DNA of 64,000 nucleotides, taken from IMG/VR virus record IMGVR_UViG_3300036715_003906, positions 62,001-126,000 of that record; one strand, 5' to 3'. The notes below the pieces were generated by a model that had not been told where the DNA came from, made no database searches, and saw nothing but the letters and a program-made list of their open reading frames with translations. Origin of the DNA: a virus. Each line of letters opens with the position of its first letter. The stretch's first letter is position 1. Of the stretch, positions 59,471 to 64,000 are shown in pieces. The position numbers were made by a program, and so were the translations under genes.

Positions 59471-59935
59471 TTACCGGGCCTTCTGCTTCGCCCGGGCCCT
59501 GGCTTCCTCCCGGTGCGTGAGAAGGCTCGCCACGGCCTTGTGGGCCGTCTCCCGACGAGCCACGGCCCCTGTCGGCGTGAGGGTCTCGTACTCCGTCCAC
59601 CCGGGGCCATCGACCCTCCGGAGCTTGGGCGTCCCGCCCCCCGCCCGGGCCGCCTCCTTCACCTTGGCGCGGTCCCCGTAGTAGACCCAGCGACGGTCTG
59701 CATCCCGGCCCACCGCGTGGTCCGCCGTGGGGTAGTCGTCCTTGTGGACCCCGCTGTTACCCTCCTTCGCCTTGGGCGTCTCGAAGGCGAAGGCAAAGCC
59801 CTGGTCCTTGAAGAGCCGGGGGGCCTGCTCATGGCAGAGGGAGCAGGCATGGGACAGGTTCGGGCCCATCTTGAGGATGAGGTCGAACGTGAGCCCGCAG
59901 TCGGGGTTCTGGCACTCGAAAACGTACTTGGGCAT
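59471..59935 (-). CDS. Zinc-ribbon protein (FmdB-like N-terminus), 154 aa
   Basis: Starts MPKYVFECQNPDCGLTFDLI, with Cys at 8, 13, 31 and 34. This is the FmdB/regulatory-protein type zinc ribbon ('M-P-x-Y-x-(F/Y)-x-C..C'). The rest is polar, with VYYGDRAKVKEAARAG and a basic Ala/Arg/Lys C-terminal helix that could bind nucleic acid or another protein. It follows the 386-residue gene by 14 bases and stands just before the sheath leader. Such small zinc ribbons in phages are thought to act as regulators or assembly factors, but none has a role I can state for this one. Confidence 0.65.
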   Translation of the reverse strand: MPKYVFECQNPDCGLTFDLILKMGPNLSHACSLCHEQAPRLFKDQGFAFAFETPKAKEGNSGVHKDDYPTADHAVGRDADRRWVYYGDRAKVKEAARAGGGTPKLRRVDGPGWTEYETLTPTGAVARRETAHKAVASLLTHREEARARAKQKAR

Positions 59936-59949
59936 GGGGTCTCCGATCT

Positions 59950-61110
59950 CTATTTGATGCGTTCGTAGCTGTGATTGCGGTTTGGCAAGACAGGGGCCGT
60001 CGCCGACGTGAGACCGAGGTGCAAGGCCCCCTCGACCCCCTGCGTACCGTCCTGGCGTTCCCCTGTCACCTTGCTGAACGTGAGGGGGAGCGGAATGTGG
60101 ACCTCCCAGTCCGCCCGGAACTGGATGCCCAGGCTGGCCGTGTAGAAGAAGAGGTCCCCCGTCTCGTCGTAGGACTCCTCCGCCGTCCCCCCGATGCTGA
60201 TGTCGAGTAGCTCGATGCCCTCGAACTCCAGGACCGGCTTCTTCTCGGCCGTGAGGGTCATGACCGCGAAGTCCGCGATCTCCTCCATCTGGATTGGATC
60301 CGTCGCGATCACGTCCACGTCGAAGGAAAGCTCGTACTTTCCCCCGTAGGCCATCGCTGCCTGGACCCTGTCCTGGTAGACGGACACGGCGACCTTGTCC
60401 CCCTTCCGGGCCCGCTTGCCGAAGGCCAGGACGACGCCGGGCAAGGTCAGGGCGTCGGACGTGTTCCAGTAGAACTCCTGGGGCCCGATGCTGTCCCCGG
60501 GGTAGCGGTAGTCGGCCGTGACCGTCGTCCCCCCAGGAAAGGCCGCCTGAAAGGTGATGGCCCCCTTGCCGTCCACCACGTAGTCCCGCCCCGGCTGCAT
60601 GAGCACCCGCTGGTTCAACCAGAGGCGTAGCGTCTTCGGGGCCGGCGCGTGACGGAGCTGGGCCGCCCGCTCCACCCCGGAGACGAAGCGCAAAACCGGC
60701 TCGTCCGTCACGGTGTAGAGGGGGTCGATGATATAGGTCCCCGGCGTCTGGGGCGTGTCAGGCGCCTCCAGGACCTCCAGGAAATAGACGCCCGGGGCCG
60801 TGGGCATGACGTCCCCCTTCTGCTGGACGACCGCCAGATCCTCCCGGACCCATTCGAGGGGGTACGACGGGGGGCCCACGTAGGACAGCATCGTCCGGGA
60901 GTGGATGGTCCCGACGAAGTTGTCCGCGGAGAGGACCACCTTGTTCGCGCTCGCCCCCTTGACCACAATGCCGAAGTGCGGCCTCTCCTCGAAGCTGTAC
61001 TTGTCCTGGATGAAGGGGACGATCTTCGCGTAAATCGGATGACGGCTGAAGCTGTCCTGAAGCTCGACGATCAGCCGCCGCTTCATCGACGAGAGCAGGT
61101 AGTAGTACAC
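59950..61110 (-). CDS. Virion-type structural protein near the sheath gene (386 aa)
   Basis: Begins with GTG at 61110-61108 ((M)YYYLLSSMKRRLIVELQDSF); an ATG nine codons in is an alternative start, but no ribosome site stands before it. The body alternates beta segments (HFGIVVKGASANKVVLSADN; GTYIIDPLYTVTDEPVLRF) and ends with a strand-rich domain containing FYTASLGIQFRADWEVHIPL. This has the look of a neck, tail-terminator or sheath-associated structural protein of large phages, but I recognise no named family. It sits between the actin-like ATPase gene and the zinc-ribbon gene, upstream of the sheath. Confidence 0.6.
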   Translation of the reverse strand: MYYYLLSSMKRRLIVELQDSFSRHPIYAKIVPFIQDKYSFEERPHFGIVVKGASANKVVLSADNFVGTIHSRTMLSYVGPPSYPLEWVREDLAVVQQKGDVMPTAPGVYFLEVLEAPDTPQTPGTYIIDPLYTVTDEPVLRFVSGVERAAQLRHAPAPKTLRLWLNQRVLMQPGRDYVVDGKGAITFQAAFPGGTTVTADYRYPGDSIGPQEFYWNTSDALTLPGVVLAFGKRARKGDKVAVSVYQDRVQAAMAYGGKYELSFDVDVIATDPIQMEEIADFAVMTLTAEKKPVLEFEGIELLDISIGGTAEESYDETGDLFFYTASLGIQFRADWEVHIPLPLTFSKVTGERQDGTQGVEGALHLGLTSATAPVLPNRNHSYERIK

Positions 61111-61154: not shown

Positions 61155-62162
61155 TCACTCCTCTTCGGAGGCGAGAACCAGGAGCCCCTCGGCGACCGCC
61201 GTCATCGGGTCCGAGGCGGGCACGATGTCGCTGACCTCGATGGGAAAGCCCTTCTTCTTGACCGCCTGGAACTCCTGCTTGAACACGTCGAGGAAGTTCT
61301 TGGCTCGCGTCGTGCCCCCCGAGACGACGAGCGGCACGGCCTCGGGCAAGTCGACCGCCGCCGTCCCCTTGCGCACGAAGTCCGCCGTCTGCTGGAGCGT
61401 GTAATGGACGAGCGACCGGATGTAGACGACCAGCGCCTCCTCCTCGCGCCCCTTGGGGTGGAGCAGGTCGACCCCCCGCTCCTTGATCGCGCAGACCTTG
61501 GCCGAGGTCGACCCGAGGGCCCGGGCCGTCTGGCTGTCGATCCAGTCCCCGCCCCGGGAGAGGCTGAACGCAAAGGCCGGCACCGTCTGGTAGGCCAGGG
61601 CGATGTTGGCCATCCCCGAGCCGTAGCTGATCGCCAGACCCGAGAAGGTCGAGCCCGCGCACTGGCTGTAGATGACCGCCTCCGCCTCGTTCTTCGGGTG
61701 CGCCGTGTACCCGAAGCCGCTCAGGATCTGGCGGAGGCTCTCCGTGTGGAAGATGACGTCCTGCCCCTCCTGATCCACCGGAGCCGCCGGGACGGAGTAG
61801 TAGCAGTGCTCCCCCTCGACCACGGGCTCCCCGATGACGTTGTGCAGGAGGTACGAGAGGATCTTCTGCGCGTCGAGTTCCCCCGCCGACACCACGCCCC
61901 GGGCGAGCGGCCTACGCAGGTCCCGCTTGAAGAGGTTGGCAAGCGTGAGGGCGCTGTCCCCGAGGACCAGGAGCTTGTCCCCCTCAACGATGTAGTCGAC
62001 CTTGCCCATCTTGAGCTGCTTCTTGGCCGACTCGTCGAGGTCGATGAAGCAGTCACGGATGCGCCGGATCGAGGTCTTGCCCCCCTCGGCCATCCGGGCC
62101 GAGACGAGGTTCATGGTTCCGATATCGAGGCCCACGCCGGGCCGGTTGAGGTCCTTGCTCAT
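61155..62162 (-). CDS. Actin/HSP70-superfamily ATPase, MreB/ParM/PilM-like (335 aa)
   Basis: The five landmarks of the actin fold can be traced. Phosphate-1 is GLDIGTMNL (residues 11-19, D13). An NEAEAVIYS segment (158-166) equals the 'EPxAAA' helix of HSP70. Phosphate-2 is AISYGSGMANIAL (177-189), where the usual acidic residue is Ser/Tyr. GGDWID (204-209) matches the 'GGxDFD' loop, and the adenosine motif is VVSGGTTRAKNF (279-290). It would bind and probably hydrolyse ATP, and might polymerise. Length (335) fits MreB or ParM class rather than HSP70. It follows the Dps-like gene by 9 bases. Phage actin-like proteins can move or centre DNA. A scaffold or assembly role in tails would be new. 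Confidence 0.82.
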   Translation of the reverse strand: MSKDLNRPGVGLDIGTMNLVSARMAEGGKTSIRRIRDCFIDLDESAKKQLKMGKVDYIVEGDKLLVLGDSALTLANLFKRDLRRPLARGVVSAGELDAQKILSYLLHNVIGEPVVEGEHCYYSVPAAPVDQEGQDVIFHTESLRQILSGFGYTAHPKNEAEAVIYSQCAGSTFSGLAISYGSGMANIALAYQTVPAFAFSLSRGGDWIDSQTARALGSTSAKVCAIKERGVDLLHPKGREEEALVVYIRSLVHYTLQQTADFVRKGTAAVDLPEAVPLVVSGGTTRAKNFLDVFKQEFQAVKKKGFPIEVSDIVPASDPMTAVAEGLLVLASEEE

Positions 62163-62852: not shown

Positions 62853-63386
62853 TCACCCCCCCGTGCGAGCGGAGAGCTGGTCGGCGACGGCCCGGGCCTC
62901 GTCCGCGAGGGCCTCGATGGACCGGATGACCGGCCGGGCGTAGTCCACCGCCCCGATCCCGTGCGACTGGGCCAGGGCCTCCGCCGACGCTCGCCGCACC
63001 CGCTCGACGTCCGCCACACGAGCCGTGATGACCCCGAGGGCCGGGTGGTTCGGGGTGCGGAGGAAGTCGCCCGCCACCGCCTCTGGATCGAGACCCAGAT
63101 CGGCGGCCTTCTTCGCCTTGCCCTTGCCCTTGTCGGCCTTCTCGGCCTTGGCGTCCTCCTTCAGCTCCTTGCCCACGTCCCCCATGCTGACCTTCTCGGG
63201 CTTGGCCGAGAAGGTCTTGCCCGTGTACGGGGAGCGGACGCTCACCATCTTCTTCGGGAGGTAGAAGTCCTGCTTCGTTTCCGGGCAGGTATAGAGCCAG
63301 AGGGACGTGGCCGCGGTCTTGTCGTCGGCGGTCTTCTCGACAAGGAACTGGGCGAGATCAGCGAGGTGGGCTTGGCGGGGGTGCAT
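62853..63386 (-). CDS. Unknown protein with charged Lys/Ala linker (177 aa)
   Basis: Starts MHPRQAHLADLAQFLVEKTA. The first 80 residues include a compact segment (SLWLYTCPETKQDFYLPKKM) with a single Cys and many aromatics. Residues about 85-125 are a Lys/Ala/Asp low-complexity linker (KAEKADKGKGKAKKAADLGL), and the C-terminus is an amphipathic helix (RVRRASAEALAQSH...IEALADEARAVADQL). It could be a two-domain scaffold or linker. I recognise no family. It is the first of the closely packed set 63386-61155 and so should be co-expressed with the Dps-like and actin-like genes. Confidence 0.58.
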   Translation of the reverse strand: MHPRQAHLADLAQFLVEKTADDKTAATSLWLYTCPETKQDFYLPKKMVSVRSPYTGKTFSAKPEKVSMGDVGKELKEDAKAEKADKGKGKAKKAADLGLDPEAVAGDFLRTPNHPALGVITARVADVERVRRASAEALAQSHGIGAVDYARPVIRSIEALADEARAVADQLSARTGG

Positions 63387-63408: not shown

Positions 63409-63422
63409 GGAAAAGGACTTTA
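63409..63422 (-). promoter_or_regulatory. Recurring junction motif, copy 6
   Basis: Coding-strand TAAAGTCCTTTTCC at the TAA stop of the coiled-coil gene, followed by CCAC-CGGT-GTGG and GGAGGAG before the next ATG. It shares AGTCCT.TT..CC with copies 3 and 4. Confidence 0.3.
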
Positions 63423-64000
63423 CCGCCCCTGCTTGATTCGCCGCAGGGCCTCCCGGGCACTCTCCGTCCCCCCCTGCTGGGTCGACTCCGTGACCGTCAC
63501 CCGCCCGCCCTCGGGCTTCTCGAACGTGGGGAGAAAGATCGGGACGTCCGACGAGGACGACGAGCCACCCTGAACGTGGACGTGGGACGGGGCCGCCGGA
63601 ACGCCCACCGTGACGACCGCCGGCCGGGACTGGAGTTCCGTGAGGAGCGTGAGCATCTGGTCAAAGCGGGGGTCGGGGGCGGGGCCCTTGGACGCGACCA
63701 GGCCCTGGAGAATACGGATCTCCGCGTCCCGCTCACCCACCTGGGCCTGGGTCCGTGCCAGGTGCTCCCTCAGTCCCTCGACCTGGGCCTGGAGGTCAGC
63801 CTTCTCCCGCTCCAGCACCGCGAGCCGGTCCTGCACGTCCGTGTCCACGGGGGGCCCGCCCCCCTCCAGGGGCAGTCCCCGCCTCACCCGCGCAAGGAGA
63901 CTCTGGTTGACCGCCCGCCACAGGTCGCGGGAGGAGAGAGCCTTGTCCGTCGCTATCGCCACCACCTCACCCTCCGTGATGATCAGCGAAAGATCCGCGA
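63420..64000 (-). CDS. Coiled-coil protein, N-terminus cut by window edge
   Basis: The frame remains open to the right edge (upstream codons read ADLSLIITEGEVVAIATDK), so the GTG at 63965 is probably internal and the true start lies outside the window. Visible residues include a long coiled coil (DRLAVLEREKADLQAQVEGL and on to about 63700). A Ser-rich stretch (GGSSSSSD) follows, and the end is helical (ESAREALRRIKQGR). No known domain is seen. Possibly a scaffold or tail-neck linker. It leads the operon containing the Dps-like and actin-like genes. Confidence 0.65.
   Translation of the reverse strand, partial: ADLSLIITEGEVVAIATDKALSSRDLWRAVNQSLLARVRRGLPLEGGGPPVDTDVQDRLAVLEREKADLQAQVEGLREHLARTQAQVGERDAEIRILQGLVASKGPAPDPRFDQMLTLLTELQSRPAVVTVGVPAAPSHVHVQGGSSSSSDVPIFLPTFEKPEGGRVTVTESTQQGGTESAREALRRIKQGR

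Follow-up and report, generated by a model that had tools for sequence, protein, structure and literature searches.

The 251,474-bp virus record analysed here encodes, within a block of tail and structural genes, an actin of the known volactin family. The gene setting is unexpected, and the viral members make up a large branch that is new for this family. The stretch under analysis, hereafter the window, comprises 64,000 nucleotides (positions 62,001 to 126,000 of the record), and the gene for the 335-aa protein lies close to its end. To our knowledge, only a few actins have been described from phages to date, and these are linked to DNA. No phage paper describing volactin was found in the open-access literature, an unseen description being possible, and a jumbo-phage review and a huge-phage survey mention no cytoskeletal filament other than the tubulin PhuZ. 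The actin family found here differs from those of the known phage actins; it occurs in at least two clades of huge phages and is, in one of them, a fixed member of a block of structural genes. If it forms filaments, it would represent a further type of phage cytoskeleton beside PhuZ and the ParM-like actins. The presence of volactin in a tail block suggests, although it is no proof, that these viruses organise their assembly with a filament that they encode themselves. The branch also provides a large natural set of actins without the phosphate-2 Asp, in which the role of this residue in filament dynamics is directly testable.

Family and fold of the 335-aa protein

The only strong Pfam family for the reading frame was Volactin (PF25216), with an E-value of 2.7e-66 and a score of 224.7 bits (cut-off 35), the match covering profile positions 3-321 of 321. 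The AlphaFold model built from a 91-sequence alignment reached a pLDDT of 95.5 and a pTM of 0.92 and exhibits the two-lobed actin fold; it was used in place of a single-sequence prediction, which was discarded (pLDDT 33). Foldseek comparison of the model with the PDB retrieved MreB, BeeR, MamK and actin (E 1e-15 to 1e-13, probability 1.00, TM about 0.6-0.7), the first three being the nearest solved structures, and the profile of 14 relatives had its best PDB sequence match in MamK (E 3.8e-14). The hmmscan against all Pfam-A yielded neither a ParM/StbA family nor MreB_Mbl at E<=1, so membership in either group was rejected; a separate StbA/ParM search of the genome ran without a positive control. 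The frame had no match in NCBIfam and PHROGs. No counterpart of the phage volactin was present among the BFVD viral models, where the closest folds were Hsp70 homologues of closteroviruses and giant viruses.

There is hardly any doubt that the protein is a real actin homologue, a volactin with the actin fold. The earlier note on this DNA had proposed an actin-fold ATPase, and the family match, the two lobes of the model and the structural neighbours bear it out, the ATPase activity itself being predicted from sequence and model; the best matches are to the actin fold and not to an unrelated one. All five motifs read in the earlier note, i.e., DIGT, NEAEA, SYGSG, GGDWID and the adenosine motif, are present (Table 1).

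Table 1. Features of the actin gene, its nucleotide pocket and the surrounding gene block, in window coordinates unless stated otherwise
Feature	Position	Strand	Evidence or remark
Volactin-family actin homologue, 335 aa	61155..62162	-	PF25216, AlphaFold, Foldseek
Phosphate-1 motif DIGT, residues 13-16	62115..62126	-	D13, G15 and T16 in every aligned relative covering the column
NEAEA helix start, residues 158-162; E159 at catalytic Glu position (MamK E143)	61677..61691	-	MamK profile alignment; E159 in 162/162 viral sequences
Phosphate-2 motif SYGSG, residues 179-183; S179 replaces the usual Asp (MamK D161)	61614..61628	-	MamK alignment
GGDWID motif, residues 204-209	61536..61553	-	Conserved column block
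Adenosine motif SGGTT, residues 281-285	61308..61322	-	G282 and G283 invariant
Giant tail-sheath-like protein, 1427 aa	55051..59334	-	40% identity to L114 protein
Zinc-ribbon protein, 154 aa, conserved in block	59471..59935	-	Zn_ribbon_8, E 1.7e-5; 69 loci
g386, structural protein encoded directly downstream of actin	59950..61110	-	Weak matches in PHROGs (virion structural, tail)
Dps/ferritin-like protein, 225 aa	62172..62849	-	Ferritin best E 1.4e-10 in family; close relative above Pfam cut-off
177-aa protein g177, in some relatives only	62853..63386	-	14/84 viral loci (iterated search)
g181, linker-like partner candidate, continues past window end	63420..64000	-	Upstream of actin in 61/61 loci
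438-aa frame with weak Intein_splicing match	L153:5846-7162 = record 129846-131162, just outside window

Tail gene block and a possible role in virion assembly

Iterated HMM searches with the neighbours of the actin gene over 84 viral loci gave a one-strand order of a 450-aa virion protein, g181, in some relatives g177 and a Dps-like gene, the actin, g386, a zinc-ribbon protein and a giant sheath-like protein. In the window, the actin frame starts 9 bp past the stop codon of the gene before it, and the next gene follows after 44 bp. Among loci with enough flank, g386 lies within 3.5 kb downstream of the actin in 65 of 75 and the sheath-like protein follows in 48 of 60. An independent scan seeded from g386, which favours phages near the window, found the actin directly upstream in all 77 loci with enough sequence, on the same strand and usually no more than about 60 bp away. 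Among the 84 loci, g386 copies of 36-40% identity keep the same order. Some loci within the window's clade carry an actin gene and no detectable g386 nearby. The location in a tail cluster, which the earlier note had pointed out, thus holds clade-wide, the actin sitting among structural and sheath-like genes. Median identities to the window are 57% for the actin and 58% for the sheath-like protein, so the actin diverges as the sheath-like protein does.

A PHROG virion structural family was matched in 21 of 38 members of the 450-aa protein family, and the profiles of this protein and of g386 matched no solved structure. The giant protein carries YVPPGVY near its N-terminal end. Among its relatives, scores with Phage_sheath_1C (PF17482; cut-off 26.9) reach 31 bits, others staying just under the cut-off. 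The 1427-aa copy in the window had no match to this family and is 40% identical over both halves to a relative from the matching family; the C-terminal sheath profile had no match in the PDB. The protein is unusually large, reaching 2454 aa in relatives, with middle domains apparently repeated. Upstream of the tail block, the 438-aa frame has a weak match to Intein_splicing (PF14890, E 1.6e-5) below the cut-off.

A phage Dps/ferritin-like gene adjoins the actin gene in the window. It was detected in 29 of the 84 viral loci of the first scan, mostly in the window's subclade, and conservation of the actin and tail genes does not depend on its presence, which weakens the suggestion that the actin organises Dps; we rejected this role.

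The candidate for a linker is g181, which lies within 3 kb upstream of the actin in every locus with enough sequence and evolves fast (median 30% identity to the window). Its N-terminal domain is retained, as is a C-terminal P-x-F-[IL]-P followed by a basic end, and the part between them is variable and either coiled-coil or disordered (alignment A8). The actin gene of a second phage clade is immediately preceded, in 77 of 81 loci, by one whose product similarly combines a short domain with a charged linker and a conserved W-x-I-P-D-F...K-x-FGK end. Small proteins that are dissimilar in sequence but similarly laid out, encoded directly upstream of volactins in two clades, are what would be expected of tethers; both could act as such, a proposal that draws on few conserved residues. 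The short motif shared by the upstream partners, P-x-F-[IL]-P in clade A and W-x-I-P-D-F in clade B, is a lead only.

We hypothesize that the volactin-family actin, whose gene is fixed in single copy in the tail block across a large huge-phage clade, would be expressed late, bind ATP and assemble into a filament, which g181 as a linker and/or g386 would tether to its cargo and which could then hold or position tails or virions during assembly. Such a role in tail or virion organisation, already raised in the earlier note as placing virions or guiding tail assembly, is the leading hypothesis. We give an ATP-dependent volactin filament that organises tail or virion assembly via g181 and/or g386 not quite an even chance; co-location with tail genes is no proof of contact with tails. 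The more specific version, in which linker-tethered filaments lacking the phosphate-2 Asp gather or position tails as a dedicated, PhuZ-like actin cytoskeleton for tail and virion morphogenesis, is a possibility we hold more tentatively.

The chief rival explanation is a virion component, or an assembly ATPase or chaperone. In this view, the protein would bind ATP as a monomer or short oligomer, connect or fold parts of the tail and possibly remain in the particle, much as is known for closterovirus Hsp70h, which has the same superfamily fold. The position of the actin within the tail block beside structural genes, its single copy per genome, its divergence similar to that of the sheath-like protein, and the Hsp70 homologues as closest viral folds are all in line with this explanation. 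However, the sequence belongs to a filament-forming family, the top PDB hit of its profile is an actin that forms filaments, and no tail genes surround the cellular relatives; we consider a virion part unlikely, yet deserving serious attention.

An actin for segregation or positioning of DNA like ParM or AlpC, which would place phage genomes and lie in the tail block incidentally, has precedents in the prophage actin AlpC (PMC4446434) and in the haloarchaeal actin salactin involved in DNA partitioning (PMC10746226). This role is less likely because no iteron-type repeat array, as a possible partition site, was found near the actin gene and no ParR-like adaptor was recognised by Pfam among the neighbours, the fixed partners being structural genes; with no StbA/ParM profile match in addition, we regard it as distinctly unlikely.

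Nucleotide pocket and the phosphate-2 motif

In the profile alignment, S179 falls on MamK D161 and E159 on MamK E143, thus the phosphate-2 Asp is truly replaced by Ser, while the NEA helix retains its catalytic Glu. The absence of the acidic residue found in canonical hydrolysing actins, noticed earlier from the SYGSG motif, is therefore genuine. The residues D13, E159, S179, N186, G282 and G283 are fixed in 162 viral sequences, with a single gap at D13, which argues that selection maintains the nucleotide site. Serine occupies the phosphate-2 position in 58 of 58 viral and 36 of 37 cellular sequences (alignment A2), and an alignment of both phage clades that was not dereplicated shows it in each of the 162 viral sequences. 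M184, with a single Leu among the 162, and N186 are as fixed as S179; other actins commonly have Thr and Asp at these positions. The phage actin fits the family pattern S-x-G-[ASG]-G-M-x-N, and the plasmid proteins from Haloarcula and Natrinema, which are haloarchaeal relatives of the Haloferax volcanii volactin, read ISFGAGMTN. The missing acid is, as far as these alignments go, a trait of the volactin family and not peculiar to the window's phage.

The volactin of H. volcanii forms dynamic filaments that polymerise and depolymerise in vivo (PMC10869688). Since the motif is a family trait and these related filaments are dynamic, the motif alone does not demonstrate a loss of hydrolysis, and the earlier proposal that it points to altered hydrolysis in this protein is not supported in that form. 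The sequence comparison suggests an unusual catalytic site across the volactin family rather than a phage-specific loss. On the other hand, the D301A substitution abolishes hydrolysis in AlpC and makes its filaments static (PMC4446434), and D161A abolishes the filament dynamics of MamK (PMC5059902); the dynamics of a phage filament are therefore not assured. Both mutants, together with the change of D to S in every viral sequence, would fit a non-hydrolysing, ATP-bound switch or stable strut owing to the loss of the phosphate-2 Asp. This explanation is very unlikely in our view, as cellular volactins share the change, filaments of the family are dynamic in vivo, and both the catalytic E159 and the phosphate-1 D13 are retained.

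Distribution and comparison with known systems

The profile scan of IMG/VR gave at least 584 confirmed viral contig stretches with volactin relatives, a number in which some cellular contigs wrongly filed as viral, and several assemblies of the same virus, may be included; the best 80 of these stretches are phage-like by their neighbouring genes. A single-sequence viral scan with the actin frame found nothing, and INPHARED (50,697 records) contained only two matches, in uncultured huge phages of 485 and 595 kb; no isolated phage with the gene turned up. Each of 21 large phage records (182-595 kb) carries exactly one volactin. No tubulin was found in these records with a profile that detected tubulin in 13 of 14 control genomes and that could miss a divergent PhuZ.

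Among cellular genomes, volactin exceeded the cut-off in 111 of 294 sampled Planctomycetota and was present in 21 of 293 sampled Thermoplasmatota and on four haloarchaeal plasmids. Planctomycetota (G002, G295-G587) have up to four copies, many of them in open frames of 600-1,000+ aa, which suggest fusions, and their volactins appear to be unstudied. A 2.6-kb contig (L033) in a Thermoplasmatota MAG (G014) encodes a phage-clade volactin 48% identical to that of the window and probably comes from a phage, having been binned with the MAG.

In the trees, the window's phage clade is monophyletic (SH-aLRT 99-100), being sister to most planctomycete proteins in one tree, and LR756511-type phages form a second, distant phage clade. 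Volactins therefore entered phages at least twice, or once very long ago with later replacement. In the second huge-phage clade (L002:14756-16011 and L232-L311), volactin lies in a different conserved context with PKD-domain proteins and primase, a downstream DLGAAAY-type protein and an MptE-like protein, and a link to tails would thus be specific to the window's clade. That a late-made volactin alters cell shape or division by co-assembling with a host volactin or blocking it draws on the occurrence of volactins in Planctomycetota, Thermoplasmatota and haloarchaea and on the planctomycete sister group, but it is most improbable, as strict coupling to tail genes is unexpected for a host-takeover gene, and co-assembly is uncertain because identity to most cellular members is 33-43%.

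Compared with known viral systems, closterovirus Hsp70h shares the actin/Hsp70 superfamily fold and is among the closest viral folds in BFVD, but it is an Hsp70-family protein of plant RNA viruses and not an actin. AlpC of prophage CGP3 and the ParM-type phage actins are likewise encoded by phages (PMC4446434); AlpC, however, has the phosphate-2 Asp D301 and pairs with the DNA adaptor AlpA, whereas the phage volactin has no StbA/ParM match. The tubulin PhuZ of nucleus-forming jumbo phages would be the functional parallel, as a phage-made filament moving viral cargo, although its fold is unrelated to that of volactin and tubulin was detected in none of the 21 volactin phages. MamK, BeeR and MreB have the same fold and are the nearest solved structures by both profile and Foldseek, but they keep the phosphate-2 Asp, are 14-20% identical to the phage actin and have different genomic roles. 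The closest known system is volactin itself: the haloarchaeal plasmid proteins of Haloarcula and Natrinema are 37% identical to the phage actin and have the same phosphate-2 Ser, and VolA of H. volcanii (HVO_2015) shares PF25216 with the phage protein over its full length. VolA is a chromosomal cell-shape gene, whereas the phage volactin lies in a tail block and forms a monophyletic clade of its own.
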